From a virus: 42,865 nucleotides of DNA. Both the position numbers and the translations under genes were made by a program. Location: positions 1 to 42,865 of the IMG/VR virus record IMGVR_UViG_3300047319_000951; one strand, written 5' to 3'. The notes under the pieces were generated by a model. It saw only the letters and a list, made by a program, of their open reading frames with translations, was not told the origin of the DNA and did no database searches. Below, piece by piece: positions 2,597 through 32,515 of this stretch (position 1 is the first letter of the stretch; every line of letters begins with the position of its first letter).

Positions 2597-3943
2597 ATGC
2601 CAAATCAAGATATACAAACCGCGTTACTAGAAATTTGTAAAGATCAAGACGATCGCAGACGCTACTCGAATTACTACGACGGCAAACACGCCTTGATGTT
2701 CGCGACTGAAAAATTTAGAAACACTTTCGGGCAGATCTTTCAAACAATGCGAGACAACCTCTGTCCTGTCGTCGTCGATTCGCCTGCTGATCGAATGGAA
2801 ATAATTAACTTTTCCTCTGATAACAATCAGGCTGACGGCTCGACAGGGACAGACGATAACGCGTGGAAACTCTGGCAACATTCGCAAATGGAGCTCGTTT
2901 CTGTTAATACGCATATCGAGGCCTTGAAAACGGGCTCGGCTTTTTTGATCGTCTGGCCCGACGCCTCAGGCGTAGCAAAATTCTATCTGCAAAACTCGCT
3001 AAATTGTGGCCTCGTCGAGGATGAGGAAACCGAAGAGCCTCTCTTCGGTTGCAAGCTCTGGCGCACGCCGGATCTCGTCTATCGCCTTAACCTCTATTAC
3101 GCCGATCGAATCGAGAAATACCAATCGCCTAAAAAGACAGGTAATATCGGCGAGCTCAAGGCCGCGCAGTTTACGCCTCTAATAAGCGAGACAGAAGAGG
3201 CTCTTACGGTAAATCCTTACGGTGTAGTTCCGATGTTCAAATTCGAGGCCGAGCCCGTTTTACGCGACGCGATACCTTTGCAGGATGCTCTCAATAAAAC
3301 GATTTGTGACAAGCTCGTAGCGATGGAATTCTCGGCTTTTCGTCAGCGATGGGCGACAGGCCTTGAGATCATAACAGACGAGGTAACAGGACAATCGAGC
3401 GCGCCGTTTAAGGCCGGAACTGATCGACTGTGGGCAACTGATAACGAGAAAACGAAATTCGGAGATTTCGACGCTACGGATCTTGAGCAATTTCTAAAAG
3501 TCGCTGATTCGTATCGCCTCGAAATGGCTCGCGTATCAGGTACGCCTTTACATTTCTTTTCGATCGATACGGGAAATAATGTATCAGGCGAGGCCTTAAA
3601 AACGCTCGAAGCGAGATTTACAAAAAAGGTAACTCGACTCTCGCTTTCGTTCGGGCCGACGTGGGCTCGTATAATGCAGCTCGCTCTCAAGATCGAGAAC
3701 CAATCAGCAGCGGACAACCTAACAACTCAATGGCAATCGCCTGAGCAACGCTCAGAGAATGAGTTTCTAACGACGCTAGGCCTCAAGCGAGCTAATCTCG
3801 ATGTTCCTGTCGATACTCTTCGCGAGGAATACGGTTACACGCCTGAGGATATTACGAAATTTAACGCCGAGGCAGAAACAGAGATCGTACCGCCGCCGCC
3901 AGAAGCACCGCCGAGCGTCTCGATCAAGGCAGCAGCAGCCTAA
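2597..3943 (+). CDS. portal protein (SPP1 gp6-like)
   Basis: The 448-aa product forms the dodecameric portal at the capsid vertex through which DNA enters and leaves. Supporting features are its place directly after terL, its length, the N-terminal motif RRYSNYYDGKH (typical YYxGxH of SPP1-type portals), the central NPYGVVPMFKFE segment, and the late SGEALKTLEARFTKKV helix seen in many portals of this class. The C-terminus is proline-rich and ends AAAA. A hairpin lies just downstream. Confidence 0.92.
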   Translation: MPNQDIQTALLEICKDQDDRRRYSNYYDGKHALMFATEKFRNTFGQIFQTMRDNLCPVVVDSPADRMEIINFSSDNNQADGSTGTDDNAWKLWQHSQMELVSVNTHIEALKTGSAFLIVWPDASGVAKFYLQNSLNCGLVEDEETEEPLFGCKLWRTPDLVYRLNLYYADRIEKYQSPKKTGNIGELKAAQFTPLISETEEALTVNPYGVVPMFKFEAEPVLRDAIPLQDALNKTICDKLVAMEFSAFRQRWATGLEIITDEVTGQSSAPFKAGTDRLWATDNEKTKFGDFDATDLEQFLKVADSYRLEMARVSGTPLHFFSIDTGNNVSGEALKTLEARFTKKVTRLSLSFGPTWARIMQLALKIENQSAADNLTTQWQSPEQRSENEFLTTLGLKRANLDVPVDTLREEYGYTPEDITKFNAEAETEIVPPPPEAPPSVSIKAAAA

Positions 3944-18067: not shown

Positions 18068-20257
18068 ATGCCTTTTATCGATTCATTCCCGCCGATTACA
18101 GCAGGCCCGACGACGGCCTCTTCATTGACGTTTATTCTCGATCTAATCCCTGTCGAGAGCGAGATCACGCATAGCCTCTGGCTTCCTCGGATCTTAGTTG
18201 ACGGCGTAGAGGTACAGATTCGCGGTGCGGTTCGCTATAACGAGGATGCAAACACGCTCGGCTCGTCGCTATCGATCACGCTCTTAAAAGATGACGATCG
18301 AGCTCTCTTTACGGGCCTCGCCTCGATCGACTTCGGCATCGGTCGAACGATCGCAGGCCTTTGGGACGAGTTGACATTTCAAACCTTGCTAAAGGGCGGG
18401 AGCGTCGATTCTGTCAATTACAATATTCAAGGCGATGCGAATCACCTTGCAGACGCCGTAAGCGTGACGATCGTTTCAAATGATACTAATCGCCTCAATA
18501 GAACCTCAGAGACAGGCCTCGTGATCTACGATTCCGATCGAGTTACGATCAGCGACGCGGATATGACGCCGATCAAAGACGCAGGAGACAACCTATACGC
18601 GCCCGCTATAACCGCGATCGCAGGAATGACCTTAGGTGATCTCTTTCAAAAAATATTTATAAACGAGTGCGACTTCGAGCAAGTCTTTACGAATCTGCCC
18701 GCCGACGATTACCCTTTGCAACGATATCAAGTGCAAATGGGCCAACGCTTTTACGACGGCCTTAAAGGTTTTATTGGTATGTACTCGCCCGCGATCTCGC
18801 TCGTCGATAACGCGATTTGGATCTTAGATACTACTTTGCCGCAGCCTGTAGGTTTTCCTGAGCCAAAGGAAATTACGATCGATCGGCCTCTCGCGACGAG
18901 CTCGCAAAAAGCGCAGCAATCGCTCGATGGCCTTTTAGTCCAATATGTAGGCCTCGAAAATAACTACGATTACACAACCTTTCGTTTTGACTATCCGAAA
19001 AATACGAGCGGCAATGTTCGTATCGAATCCGAAGTGATAACGATCGAGTTTCGCAAGAAAACAGCTACGGGCTCGATCGTGGTTCGCGAGGCGGTAAACA
19101 TCGAAAATCGACGCTCGTTTTTGCTCGACTCTTTCGATTATGAAGTCGATAATACGTCGGAAACTGTAGAATTTACCTCGAACGGCTATCCTGCTCATAT
19201 TCGTAAAGTTACGCAGAAGAGACTGCCTCCGATTACGAACCCGACATTACCGCCGACGCTGCAAAACGTCTTAACAGAAACCGAGGAATATGCTTATGCG
19301 GCGCACCCGTTTAAGCGTTTAACGCAGTACGTCGCTCGACGCTCTTATCACAGCGAGGGAATTATTTCTTATGACGACGAGGACACTCTGCCAGACGGCT
19401 CGACGTACAAACGCGACTTAATGACCTCGCAGCGCTCAGGCAATGTCAAACCGATCAGCTCTAAATATACCTTCGTTACGGGGAATATTAAGACGCGAGA
19501 GGAAACGACGCAGCCTTTAAGAAACGGCAATGTTCGGATTCGAGAGTATGAAGTCGATGAAATGAGCGGGCTCGTCGTCGTCGATAAAATGAGCGAGCGA
19601 ACAGGTGACGTTGGGATCTCAGGCGTCTCATCGACTCAGGAGCAATTGCTCGCGCTCGCGCCCGGTGCTGTTGCTCGATCGTCGAATCGGATCGAGGATT
19701 TTCCTGTCGGCGAGTTGCCTCTCGCTTACGCTTTGCCATTAGCCGAGCGCGTGATCGCTCAAAGGCAGGCAGGCGCGGGAACAGTCTCAATTCCTGTTAT
19801 AGGCTTTGACGCCTCGTTAAAGAGAGGCGTCGCAATCAAGGTCGGTGATCGAGACGGTAACTCGCTCGGTAATTTTATTATTACGGGCCGGACGCTCGAT
19901 ATCGACGCGTCAGGCCTGATAATGACGCTCTCAGGGCGTGCGATCGTAGGATCTAACGCACCTTTGCAACAGATTCCCTCGTTTACTCGAACGATAGCGC
20001 CCTTAGAGGTTATGCTTTGCACGATTCCTGTAGTTTGCACGAATGGTTATTCGATGCGCGTAAAGCAAGGCTCGATCTCGGATGTAACTGTCGAGGCTCG
20101 ACACGTCGGCGATGCTTTCGTCAATATCGAAACGACTGAGCTCTTTCTCGCACCGTGGGCAGGCTCGACGCAAAACTTTGAGCTTAGAATCACCGCAGGA
20201 GCCGTGCTCGAACCAACTCGCGTGCAATTCGATGTCGTCGTCGATCTCGCAATGTAA
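18068..20257 (+). CDS. tail hub / baseplate protein
   Basis: The 729-aa product starts at the ATG at 18068. The N-terminal region contains the pattern of a tail hub (Tal/gp27-like) protein: LILVDGVEVQIRGAVRYNED, a SLSITLL segment, then RFYDGLKGFIGMYSPAISLVDNAIWILD. The middle is rich in Tyr and Arg, and the C-terminus carries a beta-sandwich (FELRITAGAVLEPTRVQFDVVVDL). It would close the tube and hold the fibres. Family identity is inferred from size and order. Confidence 0.7.
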   Translation: MPFIDSFPPITAGPTTASSLTFILDLIPVESEITHSLWLPRILVDGVEVQIRGAVRYNEDANTLGSSLSITLLKDDDRALFTGLASIDFGIGRTIAGLWDELTFQTLLKGGSVDSVNYNIQGDANHLADAVSVTIVSNDTNRLNRTSETGLVIYDSDRVTISDADMTPIKDAGDNLYAPAITAIAGMTLGDLFQKIFINECDFEQVFTNLPADDYPLQRYQVQMGQRFYDGLKGFIGMYSPAISLVDNAIWILDTTLPQPVGFPEPKEITIDRPLATSSQKAQQSLDGLLVQYVGLENNYDYTTFRFDYPKNTSGNVRIESEVITIEFRKKTATGSIVVREAVNIENRRSFLLDSFDYEVDNTSETVEFTSNGYPAHIRKVTQKRLPPITNPTLPPTLQNVLTETEEYAYAAHPFKRLTQYVARRSYHSEGIISYDDEDTLPDGSTYKRDLMTSQRSGNVKPISSKYTFVTGNIKTREETTQPLRNGNVRIREYEVDEMSGLVVVDKMSERTGDVGISGVSSTQEQLLALAPGAVARSSNRIEDFPVGELPLAYALPLAERVIAQRQAGAGTVSIPVIGFDASLKRGVAIKVGDRDGNSLGNFIITGRTLDIDASGLIMTLSGRAIVGSNAPLQQIPSFTRTIAPLEVMLCTIPVVCTNGYSMRVKQGSISDVTVEARHVGDAFVNIETTELFLAPWAGSTQNFELRITAGAVLEPTRVQFDVVVDLAM

Positions 20258-24902: not shown

Positions 24903-24960
24903 TGGAGTTGGGTCGAGACAGGTTTGAACTGTCGTCCCACGGATTAAGAGTCCAAGCAGC
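24903..24960 (-). other. attP core: 3' half of a tRNA-Lys(CTT) gene
   Basis: Read on the minus strand the sequence has an anticodon loop CTCTTAA (anticodon CTT, Lys), a variable region, and a perfect T arm: GACAG TTCAAAC CTGTC. An acceptor strand TCGACCCA follows. The 5' half does not pair with the acceptor (no GGGTCGA upstream), so this is a tRNA fragment rather than a complete tRNA. Integrases often use such tRNA 3' ends as attB, and the phage copy restores the host tRNA after integration. It lies between int and the arm-type sites. Confidence 0.85.
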
Positions 24961-25697: not shown

Positions 25698-25966
25698 GCG
25701 ACGAGATTTTCATTATTTGTATCGAGACGAAAAAGACGAGCGAGCCTGTCGCGAGATCGATCGTCGGTTATTGCTCGCGATGTAAGGCGAGCGTTTGGGT
25801 AGCACCCTCGACGCGAAATATGATGCGACGCAAAAAATCTGCGATCTTACTTTGTAGGCGATGCGGCTCGATCGAATATCAAAAGGGCGATCATAAGATC
25901 GAGATAGTGCCGGGACAGATCGCAGAAATAATGCTCGATCGCTTTTTGAGAAGTCATAAGAATTAG
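25694..25966 (+). CDS. zinc-ribbon protein downstream of the regulator
   Basis: The 90-aa product has CSRC (about 28-31) and CRRC (about 54-57), typical zinc-ribbon knuckles, with a helical C-terminus. It is translationally coupled to the regulator (ATGA overlap). Function unknown. Confidence 0.7.
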   Translation: MSDEIFIICIETKKTSEPVARSIVGYCSRCKASVWVAPSTRNMMRRKKSAILLCRRCGSIEYQKGDHKIEIVPGQIAEIMLDRFLRSHKN

Positions 25967-25970
25967 GCCC

Positions 25971-26029
25971 GCCGACTTGTAGCTTTGCCGCGTAGTGGGA
26001 GACACGGCAGACAACTATGCAAGCTCGGC
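25971..26029 (+). ncRNA. structured leader RNA candidate
   Basis: The stretch folds into nested stems: GCCGA/TCGGC and GCTT/AAGC outside, TTGT/ACAA, and GCCG/CGGC inside. GCGTAG/CTATGC gives a competing pairing. It lies right before a rho-independent terminator and then a gene. The arrangement is that of an attenuator, riboswitch or small RNA. I do not recognise a known riboswitch class. Confidence 0.4.
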
Positions 26030-26032
26030 GTT

Positions 26033-26071
26033 AAAGCGGCGGTATCGCTTCACGAGCCGCCGCTTTTCTAT
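26033..26071 (+). terminator. terminator upstream of the early cluster
   Basis: AAAGCGGCGG pairs with CCGCCGCTTT; TTCTATTTT follows. It lies 27 bases before the next start codon, which is preceded by AAAGGGAG. Transcription into 26098 must read through or be regulated here. Confidence 0.8.
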
Positions 26072-26097
26072 TTTGATAAAAGGGAGAAAAAACAAAA

Positions 26098-26373: not shown

Positions 26374-26678
26374 ATAAAATAATAGCAGCACAGATCGGCC
26401 TCGTCGCAGACGAGGGCGGCGTCTATCAGCGCGAGCTCAAAGCTAATTACTCGATCGAGAGCGAGAGCGACGAGGCTCTTACAATTCGAGATCAAGGGCC
26501 GTGGCATTTATTCGCGACGATTACAAACGCAGCCGAGAGCGTCGTCGTAGAGCTTGCGCCCTTGCTAGCAGGGCGGCGGCTCTTTTATTTCGACTCAGAA
26601 GGCGAGCTCGGCGAGCTGCTCGTAAGCGACGCGGGAACATTCGCGGGCTTTGTCGCTATCTTTCCTCAAAATGAATAA
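26370..26678 (+). CDS. hypothetical protein
   Basis: The 102-aa beta-rich product (GPWHLFATITNAAESVVVELAPL..., AGRRLFYFDSEGELGELL) is coupled by ATGA overlap to the upstream gene, and its stop overlaps the next ATG by 8 bases. Not recognised. Confidence 0.7.
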   Translation: MNKIIAAQIGLVADEGGVYQRELKANYSIESESDEALTIRDQGPWHLFATITNAAESVVVELAPLLAGRRLFYFDSEGELGELLVSDAGTFAGFVAIFPQNE

Positions 26679-27285: not shown

Positions 27286-27318
27286 GGCCTCGAAATTATT
27301 TTTATAAATCTGCTAAAT

Positions 27319-27361
27319 CTATACCTCTAGTATTGACTTCATATAATACTAGAGGTATAGT
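27319..27361 (+). promoter_or_regulatory. promoter-operator cassette P1
   Basis: TTGACT (27333-27338), a 17-base spacer and TATAGT (27356-27361). A perfect 14-bp inverted repeat CTATACCTCTAGTA / TACTAGAGGTATAG (27319-27332 and 27347-27360) embraces the promoter, so a bound repressor would cover both boxes. Confidence 0.9.
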
Positions 27362-27401
27362 TTTATTCATAGGGCGGGACGCCCTCAAGGGAGAAACAAA
27401 A

Positions 27402-27617
27402 ATGATCGACAGAATGAGTTTTAGCGGAATGGACAAGCGAGTAGCATTTGATGCCGTAATGGAGCATCGAAAGACGGGCCTCTCAAAATCTACGGTGACA
27501 GTTGTTTGCTTGTCTCGACTTGGTAGAGACAAAAAGGTAGTAAAGGCGAGCTTTACGGTCACGGAGCGAATCAATAGTGCGAAAGGAATTCGGACGTATA
27601 TTATTGAGCACGTATAA
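27402..27617 (+). CDS. hypothetical protein, first gene of early operon 1
   Basis: The 71-aa product starts at the ATG after AAGGGAGAAAC. It is basic with beta strands (STVTVVCLSRLGRDKKVVKASFTV). The leader contains GGGCGGGACGCCC, a short hairpin shared by the other early operons. Not recognised. Confidence 0.75.
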   Translation: MIDRMSFSGMDKRVAFDAVMEHRKTGLSKSTVTVVCLSRLGRDKKVVKASFTVTERINSAKGIRTYIIEHV

Positions 27618-27630
27618 ACGATCGAGGCTC

Positions 27631-27671
27631 TTAGACGTTTGCCGAGATCGTATAACTCGGCTCTTTACAAA
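27631..27671 (+). repeat. intercistronic TAGGACGTTT hairpin, copy 1
   Basis: The conserved TTAGACGTTT is followed by the stem GCCGAG (27641-27646) / CTCGGC (27656-27661) with a 9-base loop, then CTCTTTACAAA immediately before the start codon. No Shine-Dalgarno is seen. See copies 2-6. Confidence 0.85.
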
Positions 27672-27914
27672 ATGGCAGATACAACAATTTATACAATGTG
27701 CGTTAGAGGTTACGAGGGTGCAGAGCCCGATCCTCGTTTTACGTTCTCGGCAAAAGACAAAGCCGACGCCGAGAGCAAAGGCCTCGGTTGGGCTCGATAC
27801 CACGGCTTTACTTTCTATACAGATTCGGTCAATAGCGATCGCTCGGACGTAGTAGTTAGAGAAGCAACCGCCTACGAGCTTAAATGGCAGTTGCATAACG
27901 AATACGTTTCTTAG
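27672..27914 (+). CDS. hypothetical protein
   Basis: The 80-aa product begins MADTTIYTMCVRGYEG. The true start is at 27672, immediately after hairpin copy 1; the longer in-frame start would lie in the hairpin. It resembles small phage proteins with alternating strands and a helix (DKADAESKGLGWARYHG). Its stop TAG is part of the next TTAGGACG element. Confidence 0.7.
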   Translation: MADTTIYTMCVRGYEGAEPDPRFTFSAKDKADAESKGLGWARYHGFTFYTDSVNSDRSDVVVREATAYELKWQLHNEYVS

Positions 27915-27959
27915 GACGTTTGCCGCGAGCGATTAAATCGCGGCCTTAAAAAAACAAAA
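27911..27959 (+). repeat. intercistronic TAGGACGTTT hairpin, copy 2
   Basis: TTAGGACGTTT precedes the stem GCCGCGA (27922-27928) / TCGCGGC (27938-27944). The stem differs from copy 1 but pairing is kept (compensatory changes). The upstream gene's stop TAG is inside the conserved sequence. Confidence 0.85.
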
Positions 27960-28295
27960 ATGAGCAAATTAACAGTTTACGAGTGGGTTTTCGAGGATTG
28001 CGACGAATTCGACGATATACACGATGTTAACCATTTCGATACGCTTGAGGGCTCGCGTCGCGGGCCTCAGGATCTACGTGAGGCCTTAGGCGTCGGAGGC
28101 CTCGATCTTGCCTTGCAAAAAAACGTTTATGACGAGCTCGGCGAGCTGCTTGTGAAGGCATACGCATACGTCGATCTTACGACGCACGAGATCGACGGCG
28201 TTTTCGACGAGGGCGGCGGTATGACGTGCGGCAAAGTGCCGAATCGATATCGACGAGAGCTCGCCGCGTGGTTCGCTTCTGAGGTATCGAAATGA
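27960..28295 (+). CDS. hypothetical acidic protein
   Basis: The 111-aa acidic product (EWVFEDCDEFDDIHDVNHFDTL...) has a mid-section DLALQKNVYDELGELLVKAYAYVDL. It follows the hairpin copy 2 and is coupled by ATGA to the next gene. A DNA-mimic or inhibitor role is possible for such an acidic protein but is speculation. Confidence 0.7.
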   Translation: MSKLTVYEWVFEDCDEFDDIHDVNHFDTLEGSRRGPQDLREALGVGGLDLALQKNVYDELGELLVKAYAYVDLTTHEIDGVFDEGGGMTCGKVPNRYRRELAAWFASEVSK

Positions 28296-28492
28296 GAACG
28301 GCGAAAACAACTGTCGCAGCTCTTTACGTCGATTGTCCGAACTGCGGCGAGCCGATCGAGGAAACAGGAACGGGCTCGCATTTATGGAACGCTAACGACT
28401 CGACACGCGAAAAGACTTTGACCTGTAACGCCTGCGGCGAGGTCTGTAAGACGCCTAAGCGACTTTATAACGATCAAGGCCAAACGCGTTAG
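28292..28492 (+). CDS. small zinc-ribbon protein
   Basis: The 66-aa product has CPNCG (about 15-19) and CNACG (about 45-49), a typical zinc ribbon. It is the last gene of early operon 1, with a terminator 20 bases downstream. Confidence 0.75.
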   Translation: MRTAKTTVAALYVDCPNCGEPIEETGTGSHLWNANDSTREKTLTCNACGEVCKTPKRLYNDQGQTR

Positions 28493-28514
28493 GCTCTCGA
28501 CGATCAAAATAGAA

Positions 28515-28549
28515 AAAGGCCTGAGCTAGCAGCTTAGGCCTTTCTTTTT
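28515..28549 (+). terminator. terminator of early operon 1
   Basis: AAAGGCCTGAGCT pairs with AGCTTAGGCCTTT (one G-U pair) around a three-base loop, followed by CTTTTT. Confidence 0.9.
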
Positions 28550-28802
28550 GTCTATATGAAGGGAAACGGCCTGCCTCGGTAAATCGAAAGCCTCAAGATC
28601 GAACAGAGGGAACAAAAACGAAAACCCGCTGATCAGTTGTAAGGCCTCGATTTAACGTCGTTCGATAGTGCTTAAGCAGGCCGTCTCTTTGTGTGGGGTG
28701 TGCGATGGCTATCTCTCAACAGCGGCACGGATTCAAATAATACGCGAGCGAGCGCCTCAATGCAAATCGAGGCCTCGATCGAGATCTCGATCTCTCATAA
28801 AA
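28550..28802 (+). other. 250-base noncoding stretch, possible structured RNA
   Basis: No ORF is supported here. The ends of 28567-28683 are complementary (CGGCCTGC at 28567-28574 with GCAGGCCG at 28676-28683), so a long-range stem could close a structured domain. Further short complementary parts occur inside. There is no clear terminator or promoter before P2. It could be an RNA, a remnant or a regulatory region. Confidence 0.4.
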
Positions 28803-28845
28803 CTATACCTCAGGTATTGACTTCAATTGATACCTGAGGTATAGT
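28803..28845 (+). promoter_or_regulatory. promoter-operator cassette P2
   Basis: TTGACT (28817-28822), a 17-base spacer and TATAGT (28840-28845). A perfect 14-bp inverted repeat CTATACCTCAGGTA / TACCTGAGGTATAG lies at 28803-28816 and 28831-28844; each arm contains the small palindrome TACCTNAGGTA. Confidence 0.92.
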
Positions 28846-28877
28846 TTTATCTATCGGCGGGACGCCCGACAACAATT

Positions 28878-29192
28878 ATGGCAAACAAAAACGAAACAGC
28901 TAAACAAAAATTCGAGAGGCTTAAAGCTAATCCTTCACCACGCAAATTTTACGCTCGCGATCTCAATCGAGCTCGTCGAGTATATCTACAGGAATGTCAG
29001 GACAAATACGAGGCAATGCTCGCGAGCCTCTCGATGCAGCAGCTAAAAGAGACTTGGCTCGCAACCGACAAGATGATGCACAACGAGCAAATGCCAAAGA
29101 TTCGCGGGTGGATCTTAGACGAATTCGAGCGACGAGATCTCGCAGGCTTTGAAAAGTTTCTCGAAAGCGACAACCTCGACGACATTAAATAA
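28878..29192 (+). CDS. hypothetical helical protein, first gene of early operon 2
   Basis: The 104-aa helical basic product (ARDLNRARRVYLQECQDKYEAMLASLSM...) follows the GGCGGGACGCC leader. The C-terminus is more acidic (EKFLESDNLDDIK). No family is recognised. Confidence 0.7.
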   Translation: MANKNETAKQKFERLKANPSPRKFYARDLNRARRVYLQECQDKYEAMLASLSMQQLKETWLATDKMMHNEQMPKIRGWILDEFERRDLAGFEKFLESDNLDDIK

Positions 29193-29199
29193 TTAGGCC

Positions 29200-29247
29200 T
29201 TAGGACGTTTGCCGAGATCGTTACAACTCGGCTCAAACAAAAACGAA
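29200..29247 (+). repeat. intercistronic TAGGACGTTT hairpin, copy 3
   Basis: TTAGGACGTTT precedes GCCGAG (29211-29216) / CTCGGC (29227-29232). It comes a few bases after one stop codon and 15 bases before the next ATG. Confidence 0.85.
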
Positions 29248-29601
29248 ATGACGAAAACAAAAACACTAGCAGTTATTGAACAGGCGAGGCTTAGAGCTCT
29301 CGCAGCAATGCCCGAAAGGTTGCAGCGCCTCGATCGAGAGCTCGCGATCGAGCGTCTTAAAGATTTCGATACTCTTTACGCGACGCGAGGCGAGCATCGA
29401 TTTAAGATCAATATCTTTCGCCACGGCTCGGCAGGCTTTGTCGCGACGACGAAAGTAGCCGGACACGTTATGAGGTATCACGGCAAGACTCCGAGCGATT
29501 CGTTTGCTAAATTGACGATCTCGCTGCGTTGGGTAACGTCTCGCCTCGACTTTGAAAAAAACGTCGCTATCGCGGAGGCCAAAAAATATGAGGCGGCGTA
29601 A
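29248..29601 (+). CDS. hypothetical basic protein
   Basis: The 117-aa product starts at the ATG at 29248, after the hairpin. It is helical and basic at the N-terminus (ARLRALAAMPERLQRLDREL), then has strands. It overlaps a small downstream ORF. Unrecognised. Confidence 0.7.
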   Translation: MTKTKTLAVIEQARLRALAAMPERLQRLDRELAIERLKDFDTLYATRGEHRFKINIFRHGSAGFVATTKVAGHVMRYHGKTPSDSFAKLTISLRWVTSRLDFEKNVAIAEAKKYEAA

Positions 29602-29758
29602 CCACCGTTGGCACGACGAGCGCTGCTGTTGCGGCGCTCGTCGCTTTCTTATCGCGTGGACGCCTCGCGGTTTTGTTCTAAGAATGATCGAGACGATCGA
29701 CGGCATTAAACATACAGGGTACGCACCGAGTTGCACGAGGGAACGAAAAACGAAATGA
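29588..29758 (+). CDS. very small Arg/Cys-rich protein
   Basis: The 56-aa product (MRRRNHRWHDERCCCGARR...) starts at an ATG inside the end of the upstream gene and its stop overlaps the next start in an ATGA arrangement. The overlaps fit the genome's pattern. The Cys/His-rich N-terminus could bind metal. It has no other support. Confidence 0.5.
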   Translation: MRRRNHRWHDERCCCGARRFLIAWTPRGFVLRMIETIDGIKHTGYAPSCTRERKTK

Positions 29759-30063
29759 CTAACAAAACAATTACCTTTACAGACGGCTCGCCGATCGAGG
29801 TTGACCGCGACGGCATTATCAAAGTTTACTCAGTTTTTAACATCGCGACGATTGAGCTCGACGAGGCCTGCGAGCTGCTAGAAAGGCACGTCGTCTGTTT
29901 CCTTTGCGCTCGGACGCGACTCGCCTTAGAAAGCGATCTTAGGCGTCTCGGTTGGCATCTTGATCGCTTCGAGCTTTGCCCAGATCACGCGAGCGATCGA
30001 GATACTTTCTCGCAGGCGTGGGCTCGCTTTGATAGCGAGATCAGCGAGGCCTTTAAGCTCTAA
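29755..30063 (+). CDS. hypothetical protein
   Basis: The 102-aa product starts at an ATG overlapping the previous TGA; GAGGGAAC lies 11-16 bases upstream. It has CFLC in the middle and then DHASDRDTFSQAWARFDSEI. It is the last gene of early operon 2. No terminator is seen before P3. Confidence 0.7.
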   Translation: MTNKTITFTDGSPIEVDRDGIIKVYSVFNIATIELDEACELLERHVVCFLCARTRLALESDLRRLGWHLDRFELCPDHASDRDTFSQAWARFDSEISEAFKL

Positions 30064-30089
30064 AAATAATTTGAAAAAAAGGCCAAAAA

Positions 30090-30132
30090 CTATACCTCAG
30101 GTATTGACTCTTAATAATACCTGAGGTATAGT
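30090..30132 (+). promoter_or_regulatory. promoter-operator cassette P3
   Basis: TTGACT (30104-30109), a 17-base spacer and TATAGT (30127-30132). The same 14-bp inverted repeat as P2 lies at 30090-30103 and 30118-30131. Confidence 0.92.
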
Positions 30133-30162
30133 TTTATTCATAGGGCGAGGCCCGAAACTACT

Positions 30163-30678
30163 ATGACAAACAATAACGAAAACTTGATCGCAATTTTAAC
30201 CGAGCAGACGCAGGATCTACTCGTCGCATTTATCGAACGAACCCGCGAGTATGCGGTCGAAATGTTCGCGAGATACGAACAGGCAGCAGCAAAGCCTTAC
30301 CCGCGTTACGCGGATTTTGCAACGCCCGGCTTTGTTAAGGGCAAAGGTTTTGCCAGTATCGATTACGCTCAAGGCAAGGCCTTTCACAAAGCAGAGCAGG
30401 CTCGATCAAACGCCTGCCGTATCGTCGAGGCGGGTATCGAGGATTTCGTCGGACGCGAGGTAATTCTCGCAGAAAGGCACTACGCGGGCTCGATCGCTAA
30501 GCTCGCAGCTCGTATCGAAAAGAAAGGCCTCGATCAGAGCTCGCTCGTCGTCGCTACAGGTTGGGTCGGCGTCAATATCGAGACGACGCTTACAGACGGC
30601 GTAAAAAGCGTTAAGGCGTGGACGATCATTGCCAGTGGGCCTTGCGTCAGGCCGCATTATCGCTACCTCATTAAATAA
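30163..30678 (+). CDS. hypothetical protein, first gene of early operon 3
   Basis: The 171-aa product follows a GGGCGAGGCCC leader. The N-terminal half is helical (LIAILTEQTQDLLVAFIERTREYAVEMF), and the C-terminal half has beta strands (VVATGWVGVNIETTLTDGVKSVKAW). Not recognised. Confidence 0.75.
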   Translation: MTNNNENLIAILTEQTQDLLVAFIERTREYAVEMFARYEQAAAKPYPRYADFATPGFVKGKGFASIDYAQGKAFHKAEQARSNACRIVEAGIEDFVGREVILAERHYAGSIAKLAARIEKKGLDQSSLVVATGWVGVNIETTLTDGVKSVKAWTIIASGPCVRPHYRYLIK

Positions 30679-30682
30679 GGTT

Positions 30683-30735
30683 TTTAGGACGTTTGCCGAG
30701 ATCGTATAACTCGGCTTTTCAAAAAACAAAAACAG
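30683..30735 (+). repeat. intercistronic TAGGACGTTT hairpin, copy 4
   Basis: TTTAGGACGTTT precedes GCCGAG (30695-30700) / CTCGGC (30710-30715). Here, unlike copies 1 and 5, an extra CAGGAG ribosome binding site follows before the next ATG. Confidence 0.85.
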
Positions 30736-30748
30736 GAGACTTAAAAAA

Positions 30749-31099
30749 ATGTTAGATTCAAAAGAAAATACTCAAGGTGAGGCGAAAGAGGCCTCGACAA
30801 CAGCAACGAAAGCAAAGCGCGTCAAGCCCGTAAAGGAAGTTAAGATAATTACCTCGCAGCCAGTCGATCGAGCAGCGAGACAGGCCGAGAAAGCTAAGAA
30901 GCAGGCAGCAGCAGAGGCTGCGACAGACGGCTATTCTAAGCTCGGCGATTATTTAGGCTTTGACATTAAGGCCTACGGCGATCGCTGCTACGAGAATGGC
31001 GTCGCGATCGGGCGAGCTCAAATGCTAAACGAGATTTGCGCTCAGGACATTGAAAAAACAAAGGCCTCGCTCGCTCGTATCTCTACTTTGAAATTTTAA
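30749..31099 (+). CDS. hypothetical Lys/Ala-rich protein
   Basis: The 116-aa product has a disordered basic N-terminus (KEASTTATKAKRVKPVKEVK) and a helical Ala-rich middle (QAEKAKKQAAAEAATDG). It ends in a helical domain. It has a CAGGAG ribosome binding site. It could be a nucleic-acid-binding protein, but there is no family. Confidence 0.7.
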   Translation: MLDSKENTQGEAKEASTTATKAKRVKPVKEVKIITSQPVDRAARQAEKAKKQAAAEAATDGYSKLGDYLGFDIKAYGDRCYENGVAIGRAQMLNEICAQDIEKTKASLARISTLKF

Positions 31100-31125
31100 C
31101 GAGATCCTAGCAGCTAGGTAAAAGG

Positions 31126-31152
31126 CGAGCTCTTTCGAGAGCTCGTTTTTTT
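31126..31152 (+). terminator. terminator of early operon 3
   Basis: CGAGCTCT pairs with AGAGCTCG around a TTCG tetraloop and is followed by T7. Confidence 0.9.
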
Positions 31153-31172
31153 GTGCAAAAAATCTGCTAAAT

Positions 31173-31215
31173 CTATACCTCTAGTATTGACTTTGAATAA
31201 TACGACGAGTATAGT
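31173..31215 (+). promoter_or_regulatory. promoter-operator cassette P4
   Basis: TTGACT (31187-31192), a 17-base spacer and TATAGT (31210-31215). The left arm is CTATACCTCTAGTA as in P1. The right arm has drifted to TACGACGAGTATAG, so repression of this promoter may be weaker. Confidence 0.88.
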
Positions 31216-31247
31216 TTTATCTATGGGCGGGACGCCCGACAACAATT

Positions 31248-31490
31248 ATGGCAAACGAAACAATTACGGCAACAATCGAGGTAGGGCAGACTTTAACTGC
31301 TCGTAGCATTGGCGATCACAACTGCATTTTCTCGATCGAGATTCTCGCTCGATCAAAGAGCTTTGTCACGATCAAAGATAATATGTTCGGCACGATCAAG
31401 CGATGCAAGATCAAGGTATGGAACGGGCGCGAGAGCGTCAGGCCTGAGAATTACTCAATGGCTCCGATCTTTTACGCGCCAGAGGCTTAA
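31248..31490 (+). CDS. hypothetical protein, first gene of early operon 4
   Basis: The 80-aa product begins MANETITATIEVGQTLTARSIG after a GGGCGGGACGCCCG leader. It is beta-rich with basic patches (SFVTIKDNMFGTIKRCKIKV). Not recognised. Confidence 0.7.
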   Translation: MANETITATIEVGQTLTARSIGDHNCIFSIEILARSKSFVTIKDNMFGTIKRCKIKVWNGRESVRPENYSMAPIFYAPEA

Positions 31491-31495
31491 TTTTC

Positions 31496-31537
31496 TTAGG
31501 ACGTTTGCCGAGATCGTATAACTCGGCTCTTTACAAA
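31496..31537 (+). repeat. intercistronic TAGGACGTTT hairpin, copy 5
   Basis: TTAGGACGTTT precedes GCCGAG (31507-31512) / CTCGGC (31522-31527) and ends CTCTTTACAAA before the ATG, nearly identical to copy 1. Confidence 0.85.
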
Positions 31538-31732
31538 ATGAAGCGATATTACGCAACTGCTTACGATGCTCTTCGAGCGTTACACGACTACGAAAGAAAG
31601 ACGCTCGACAGGCCTTCAAAAGAAGAGCTCCGCGTCCGAAAAGTCGGCAAAGGCAAAAGAGCCTATTTAGTAGCAACCGATCAGGAATTATTTTACAAAC
31701 GAATGCACGGCCTCTCGTTAAAATCTCTTTAG
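31538..31732 (+). CDS. hypothetical small basic protein
   Basis: The 64-aa product starts right after hairpin copy 5 (MKRYYATAYDALRALHDYER). It is strongly basic. The stop TAG lies in the next TTTAGGACG element. No family is recognised. Confidence 0.65.
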   Translation: MKRYYATAYDALRALHDYERKTLDRPSKEELRVRKVGKGKRAYLVATDQELFYKRMHGLSLKSL

Positions 31733-31785
31733 GACGTTTGCCGCGAGCGGTTAAGTCGCGGCGTATAATTAAACGAGGTTACTTT
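31729..31785 (+). repeat. intercistronic TAGGACGTTT hairpin, copy 6
   Basis: TTTAGGACGTTT precedes GCCGCGA (31740-31746) / TCGCGGC (31756-31762), the same stem type as copy 2. An ACGAGG ribosome binding site follows before the annealing-protein start. Confidence 0.85.
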
Positions 31786-32460
31786 ATGACAAATTCAACA
31801 GCAGCAAAAAAACAGGCGATCGAGATCGACGAATTTTCGTTTGGTGCGATTCGAGCTCGCCTCGCGATGCCGATCGAGGCCTCTCGTATAATGACGAAAA
31901 ATATCGGCGGGCGTAATATCGCCTTCGTTAACATAACCGATATGAAGGATATTCTCGACGAGCGAGTGCCAGTTTGGGAGTCGCACGTCACCGAGACGAA
32001 GCAGATCGGCGATAATCTTTGCGTCGTGGTTCGCTTAACGATTCACTCGACAGACGGCATTTTCTCGCAGGACGGAACGGGCCTCGAATCGCTCGCCATT
32101 AACGGTTACGGCGATCCTTTCTCTAACGCCTACGCTCAGGCCTTTCGTCGAGCTTGCGAGAGTTTCGCTCTAGGCCGCGAGCTCTGGCGTAAAGATCACT
32201 CGTCGAGCTCGTCGAGCTCGTCAAGCAACAGGCAATCGTCGCAGCCTCGACGCCCGCAAGCGACAAAGCCTGCGCAAGGGCGAGCAGACGACGCTCGCGA
32301 CGCGGCGACAAACGCGCAGCTCGTTTTGCTCGATCGCAAGCTCGCAGAGAACAACCTCAATGCGATCGACGTACTCGCCGACGAATTTCCTGAGATCGGC
32401 GATATCTCGCAGCTCTCGAAAGCAGCAGCGAGTTATTTGATAACTCAACTCGCGACTTAA
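31786..32460 (+). CDS. Rad52/Rad22-family single-strand annealing protein
   Basis: The 224-aa product starts at ATG 31786 behind GAGG. The N-terminal two-thirds has the Rad52-like order IDEFSFGAIRARLAMPIEAS (start), a central beta sheet with VVVRLTIHSTDG, and then NGYGDPFSNAYAQAFRRACESFALGRELW. This last segment is typical of Rad52-type annealing proteins (single-strand annealing, recombination). A Ser-rich linker (nine Ser) and a Gln/Arg/Pro stretch connect it to a small helical C-terminal domain. It closes early operon 4 and likely acts in replication or recombination of phage DNA. Confidence 0.85.
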   Translation: MTNSTAAKKQAIEIDEFSFGAIRARLAMPIEASRIMTKNIGGRNIAFVNITDMKDILDERVPVWESHVTETKQIGDNLCVVVRLTIHSTDGIFSQDGTGLESLAINGYGDPFSNAYAQAFRRACESFALGRELWRKDHSSSSSSSSSNRQSSQPRRPQATKPAQGRADDARDAATNAQLVLLDRKLAENNLNAIDVLADEFPEIGDISQLSKAAASYLITQLAT

Positions 32461-32483
32461 TCGACGCGAGATCGACGAATAGA

Positions 32484-32515
32484 GGCCCGCTAGAGCGAAT
32501 CTAGCGGGCCTTTTT
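32484..32515 (+). terminator. terminator of early operon 4
   Basis: GGCCCGCTAGA pairs perfectly with TCTAGCGGGCC around GCGAA, followed by TTTTTGTCTTTT. Confidence 0.93.

Follow-up and report, generated by a model that had tools for sequence, protein, structure and literature searches.

Four predicted operons and the element at their junctions

The 42,865-nucleotide (nt) stretch analyzed here in its full length (IMG/VR record IMGVR_UViG_3300047319_000951, hereafter the window) corresponds to the genome of a soil-type temperate virus resembling siphophages, with genes for a terminase, an SPP1-type portal, an integrase, a ParB-like protein, a GH25 lysin and methyltransferases. The genome looks complete because contigs from other metagenomes join the two ends of the window, with an overlap of ~50 base pairs (bp). 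Between positions 27631 and 31762 six copies of an element made of a short conserved sequence (the tag) and a hairpin lie between genes, all on the same strand. These genes are distributed among four early transcription units (TU1-TU4), predicted from consensus promoters and terminators, which read (a slash indicating overlapping genes) g1-EL1-g2-EL2-g3/g4, g5-EL3-g6/g7/g8, g9-EL4-g10 and g11-EL5-g12-EL6-g13, respectively, EL1 to EL6 being copies 1 to 6 of the element (Table 1). Thus, the element is present at all six non-overlapping internal junctions of the four units, whereas the three overlapping ones lack it; furthermore, the type of its hairpin follows the position in the operon, type I being always found after the first gene and type II always after the second.

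The four units start from four near-identical copies (P1-P4) of one palindromic promoter, TTGACT-N17-TATAGT between paired operators, which overlap the -35 and adjoin the -10; P1-P4 are likely under the control of one putative repressor. All four promoter-proximal genes are preceded by a short GC hairpin that differs from the element, lacks the tag and lies a few nt from the 5′ end of the transcript, as predicted from the -10.

Table 1. Positions of the junction elements, promoters, hairpins and genes of TU1-TU4 (aa, amino acids)
Feature	Position	Strand	Description
EL1	27631..27661	+	type I; tag TTAGACGTTT; loop ATCGTATAA; between g1 and g2
EL2	27911..27944	+	type II; loop GCGATTAAA; between g2 and g3; g2 stop TAG inside tag
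EL3	29200..29232	+	type I; loop ATCGTTACAA (10 nt); between g5 and g6
EL4	30684..30715	+	type I; between g9 and g10; g10 with AGGAG Shine-Dalgarno
EL5	31496..31527	+	type I; between g11 and g12
EL6	31729..31762	+	type II; loop GCGGTTAAG; between g12 and g13; g12 stop TAG inside tag; g13 with GAGG
P1	27319..27361	+	TTGACT-N17-TATAGT within palindrome; operators ATACCTCTAGTAT / ATACTAGAGGTAT
P2	28803..28845	+	as P1; operators ATACCTCAGGTAT / ATACCTGAGGTAT
P3	30090..30132	+	as P1
P4	31173..31215	+	as P1; right operator degenerate
TU1 5′ leader hairpin	27371..27385	+	GGGCGGGACGCCC; no tag
Equivalent leader hairpins	~28857-28869, 30142-30154, 31224-31237		no tag
Terminator-like hairpin ending TU1	28515..28543	+	intrinsic type
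Terminator-like hairpin ending TU4	32481..32513	+	
g1	27402..27617	+	71 aa
g2	27672..27914	+	80 aa
g3	27960..28295	+	111 aa; overlaps g4 (28292-28492)
g5	28878..29192	+	104 aa
g6	29248..29601	+	117 aa; followed by overlapping g7 (29588-29758) and g8 (29755-30063)
g9	30163..30678	+	171 aa; homologues share its C terminus (HYRYLxK)
g10	30749..31099	+	116 aa
g11	31248..31490	+	80 aa
g12	31538..31732	+	64 aa
g13	31786..32460	+	224 aa

The tag has the consensus TTAG(G)ACGTTT and is directly followed by a perfect stem of 6-7 bp that closes a loop of 9-10 nt. The exact sequence TTAGGACGTTT occurs five times on the plus strand (at 27911, 29200, 30684, 31496 and 31729, the last of these tags ending at 31739), whereas the sixth tag, at 27631, is TTAGACGTTT, with one G deleted. 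The six tag-plus-stem copies that the initial annotation had placed ahead of six genes are real, save that the fourth begins at 30684 and not at 30683. With at most one mismatch allowed, the 11-mer tag yields 6 matches in the whole window, both strands included, vis-à-vis 0.74 expected, 0 of 100 shuffles reaching 6; these matches include one on the minus strand, at 19264, that is unrelated, and exclude the deletion-bearing copy at 27631. The rest of the window yielded no additional convincing copy.

Copy-by-copy comparison bears out the annotated partition of the stems, type I (GCCGAG/CTCGGC) occurring in copies 1, 3, 4 and 5 (loops of 9, 10, 9 and 9 nt) and type II (GCCGCGA/TCGCGGC) in copies 2 and 6 (loops of 9 nt in both). 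The minimum-energy fold of every core is the hairpin (-9.4 to -14.1 kcal/mol), one additional pair forming within the loop of copy 6, while the distance between the inner arms GCCG and CGGC is 13, 14 or 15 depending on the copy, with pairing preserved. It had also been claimed that both strands of the stem change together; when the two types are aligned in register, a single change affects both sides of the stem (A-U to C-G), the rest being one added A-U pair, so that the covariation is real but minimal and, being shared by copies 2 and 6, may correspond to one evolutionary event. Likewise, the upstream stop codon, reported within the tag "in several copies", is found there in two (27911 and 31729), the tag lying 5-13 nt past the stop in the others.

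The tag and the stem base (15 nt) are unaltered between types I and II, whereas the remaining stem-loop has undergone 5 substitutions and acquired 2 inserted bases; by our own arithmetic the probability of this skew is ~0.03 under a uniform model, a value that is suggestive only. The stem-loops of EL1, EL4 and EL5 are identical, loops included, and EL1 and EL5 are nearly identical as far as the ATG. The sharing of one stem-loop by copies 1, 4 and 5 and folding z-scores that, copy by copy against shuffles, are modest (just -1.5 to -2.1) would be accounted for by a recent, functionless duplication of intergenic DNA in which the hairpin is incidental; this is, however, the least probable of the explanations considered, since the pairing of type II survives two-sided changes, the placement at the junctions is exact and the tag has remained fixed while the loop diverged.

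Probable action at the level of RNA

An RNA hairpin is favored over the operator of a DNA-binding dimer because the spacing of the arms varies, the conserved flank is one-sided and the orientation follows transcription. We infer that the element acts as RNA, at gene junctions; matched changes of the two arms would also be expected of a dyad operator. The sharp edges of the copies, the order rule of the two types and the near-identity of EL1 and EL5 suggest the duplication of an operon skeleton carrying different genes, and could reflect an element operating at the DNA level, either a dyad operator or a boundary for recombination by which gene cassettes would be shuffled. Such a DNA-level role is nevertheless very improbable: half-site spacings of 13, 14 and 15, in place of the fixed one of a dimeric operator, which was rejected on this ground, are not normally tolerated by a dimeric DNA-binding protein, conservation is one-sided, the copies are invariably on the coding strand and their sequence is unlike that of the operators of these operons. 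The stoperators of Cluster A mycobacteriophages are short oriented repeats near gene boundaries that serve as operator-related DNA sites for the repressor; the element resembles them in consisting of repeated, oriented short sites at gene boundaries of a temperate phage, but its tag and stem bear no resemblance to the phage's own operators (e.g., ATACCTCAGGTAT).

Our best guess, offered tentatively and at less than even probability, is that the element is a site of intercistronic mRNA processing that supplies a 5′ hairpin. It would represent a cis-acting device, located before each non-overlapping internal cistron and composed of the tag UUAGGACGUUU in single-stranded form and of a short GC-rich hairpin. 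The tag would direct an endonuclease, of host or phage origin, to cut within, or just upstream of, the tag itself, shortly past the upstream stop codon, and the downstream piece of mRNA would then start with a hairpin situated 10-33 nt ahead of an A-rich start region, thereby resembling the predicted primary transcripts of TU1-TU4 that are already 5′-hairpinned. The outcome would be 5′-protected messages amenable to separate tuning, in which the upstream coding sequence would be prevented from pairing with the start site.

Because the promoter-proximal genes have a hairpin but no tag, the tag appears to answer a need of the internal cistrons only, and its function as the cleavage site that endows these cistrons with a 5′ hairpin is favored because the primary transcripts possess such a hairpin without it. 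In agreement with processing, all six copies are on the coding strand and confined to non-overlapping internal junctions, and the stem top and the loop vary between types while the tag and the stem base are constant. Several points weigh in the opposite direction: with 6-7 bp the stems fall short of the length that an RNase III site requires, no known nuclease motif is matched by the element, the covariation amounts to a single double change that may go back to one event, recent duplication may account for several copies (the loops of EL1, EL4 and EL5 being identical), so that their conservation overstates constraint, and a relative in the early region (contig L044) is devoid of the element. 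The RNase III sites of phage T7 are repeated intergenic hairpins at which polycistronic RNA is split, the substrates being long and double-stranded. The element likewise repeats hairpins between genes but, unlike the T7 sites, lacks a long duplex, and was rejected as an RNase III site on this ground.

A broader proposal, distinctly unlikely, is that the element belongs to an undescribed class of RNA devices at phage gene junctions: a fixed tag and a hairpin would mark every non-overlapping boundary of a regulon, operon position would set the type of hairpin and a dedicated factor would either cut the RNA or hand over ribosomes.

Possible roles in translation initiation and protein binding

In the initial annotation the element was read as an RNA device for translation initiation, coupling or RNA processing, the downstream genes having no visible Shine-Dalgarno sequence. 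Action at the level of RNA is retained here as the best reading; the arguments for translation initiation, on the other hand, are weaker than was claimed. Indeed, a Shine-Dalgarno is missing in four of the six downstream genes, AGGAG and GAGG preceding the other two, at 30749 and 31786, respectively, but by the same measure it is also absent in 26 of the 43 other plus-strand genes, so that its absence is normal in this genome and nothing special to the genes following the element. Furthermore, copy 1 reads UUAGAC, an arrangement that breaks AGGA while keeping GACGTTTGCCG, and the tag is far from the start codon even if the hairpin is not counted. Since two genes have a Shine-Dalgarno of their own and copy 1 breaks AGGA, the constant core is better viewed as a recognition tag plus hairpin than as a supplier of Shine-Dalgarno sequences, and its occurrence with or without one sets the element apart from simple ribosome recruitment.

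A more elaborate link to translation, possible though doubtful, is coupling to the upstream stop codon, whereby the AGGA of the tag would hold the terminating or the next ribosome and the hairpin would either shorten the path to the AUG, as in a split ribosome-binding site, or guide reinitiation. The tag begins at most 13 nt from the upstream stop codon, which in two copies falls within it, and the lack of the element at overlapping and promoter-proximal genes fits this mechanism; moreover, the non-overlapping junctions of L044, including that of the g9 homologue, have at the corresponding place a stop-overlapping Shine-Dalgarno (TAGGAG/TAGGGAG), to which the TTAGGA of the tag is similar. A precedent is offered by T4 genes 38 and 25, whose split ribosome-binding sites have an effective spacing of 5 and 11 nt (PMC3014915) and in which, as in the present case, an intercistronic hairpin separates a Shine-Dalgarno-like sequence from the start codon. 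However, the T4 sites are single whereas the element is repeated six times, AGGA is found in 5 of 6 copies, being broken in the first, ordinary Shine-Dalgarno sequences already accompany two copies, and the effective spacing is at least 15 nt, the distance from tag to AUG minus the hairpin amounting to 15-20 nt in the copies without a Shine-Dalgarno and to more in the other two. Pairing between AGGA and the anti-Shine-Dalgarno is weak (-3.9, as calculated with the 16S of E. coli), and the conservation of CGUUU is left unexplained. Two related candidates were rejected: the complementarity of the tag to the same E. coli 16S is equal to or below that of shuffles, and the TTG of the tag, taken as a start codon, is in frame with the gene in 4 of 6 copies, meets a stop or the wrong frame in 2 of 6 and is just 3 nt from AGGA.

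The juxtaposition of a conserved tag sequence and a variable yet paired stem, together with the confinement of the element to four operons having a common operator-promoter, would be compatible with a site at which a phage or host RNA-binding protein co-regulates TU1-TU4 through translational repression or through anti-polarity/antitermination. This is rather unlikely, given that no candidate RNA-binding family was found among the gene products scanned and that there is no conserved boxA, GCTCTTTA occurring only after EL1 and EL5; antitermination in particular makes little sense for operons that close with terminator-like hairpins or enter the next promoter. By eye, the features of boxA/nut-like, CsrA-like and attC-like sites are not common to all copies. 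An intrinsic terminator was likewise rejected, none of the six elements being among the terminator-like sites (in a scan covering loops of 3-8 only) and no consistent U run being visible by eye, and so was programmed bypass of the T4 gene 60 kind, examined for EL4 only, insofar as the g9 homologues stop normally at the C terminus of g9.

The nearest described kind is represented by the start-associated sequences (SAS) of Cluster K mycobacteriophages, 13 bp long (GGGATAGGAGCCC), which lie just upstream of starts and contain a Shine-Dalgarno-like core, and by the extended SAS (ESAS), which adds upstream 17-bp imperfect inverted repeats separated by a spacer of mostly 4-13 bp; these repeats, of unknown function, lie in one orientation beside the starts of some non-structural genes (PMC3203893). 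The element resembles them in that short, conserved, oriented repeats occur near the starts of a subset of phage genes, with inverted repeats in the extended form, but departs from them in its sequence, its spacing and the length of its arms. Its sequence is unrelated to the 13-bp SAS, a whole hairpin separates the tag from the start, the arms are perfect and of 6-7 bp with a loop of 9-10, as opposed to 17-bp imperfect repeats, the tag is upstream of the stem and the copies follow stop codons within operons.

The element offers six natural copies with two stem types in one small regulon, along with internal contrasts consisting of promoter-proximal genes with a hairpin and no tag and of matched overlapping junctions without the element; models based on processing, reinitiation and protein binding are therefore separable.

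Searches for relatives and other features of the window

No Rfam family matched the window above its gathering score and, with permissive settings, the interval 27300-31800 gave sub-threshold matches only, none of them on the element. When IMG/VR was scanned with exact and with gapped patterns, 33 and 4 contigs were returned, respectively; all of them had one copy only and lacked the stem of the element, a result consistent with chance. In phage and plasmid collections the element was unmatched by DNA similarity, two plasmid matches falling outside it, and no matching element was found in the literature, many subscription papers being outside the coverage. By terminase, four contigs 97-100% identical were recovered that do not span the element region, two of which join the window ends, whereas in another relative (G001) the terminase is the sole shared part. 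The search with g9 and with the gene at 26671 indicated that L044 alone shares two early genes, and genome contigs gave two partial matches to g9. No relative bearing the element came out of these searches.

L044 has, between 380 and 8000, six repeated promoters of its own (TTGACA-N17-TAGTAT type), unrelated in sequence, and a Shine-Dalgarno at nearly all junctions. At 3130-3470 of the same contig two tandem stretches open with the same 28-mer (TGGAGATGATCTTTGAATG.TTAGACGG), and the first looks tRNA-like but is not called by ARAGORN. The g13 product contains a stretch, DPFSNAYAQAFRRACESFALGRELW, that by eye resembles Rad52-type annealing proteins; no Pfam match was found for it.

Elsewhere, the window (1-42865) contains no CATG, as opposed to ~40 expected, a complete avoidance of one restriction-type site, while GATC is enriched 1.4 times. 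The non-coding interval 25966-26072, with a long hairpin and a terminator (-49 kcal/mol, z -4.0) and no credible Rfam match, is a candidate small RNA. Finally, on the minus strand beside the integrase gene, positions 24911-24958 read by eye as the 3′ half of a tRNA-Lys (CTT), ARAGORN finding no whole tRNA; this segment is the probable core of attP and, if so, could name the host.

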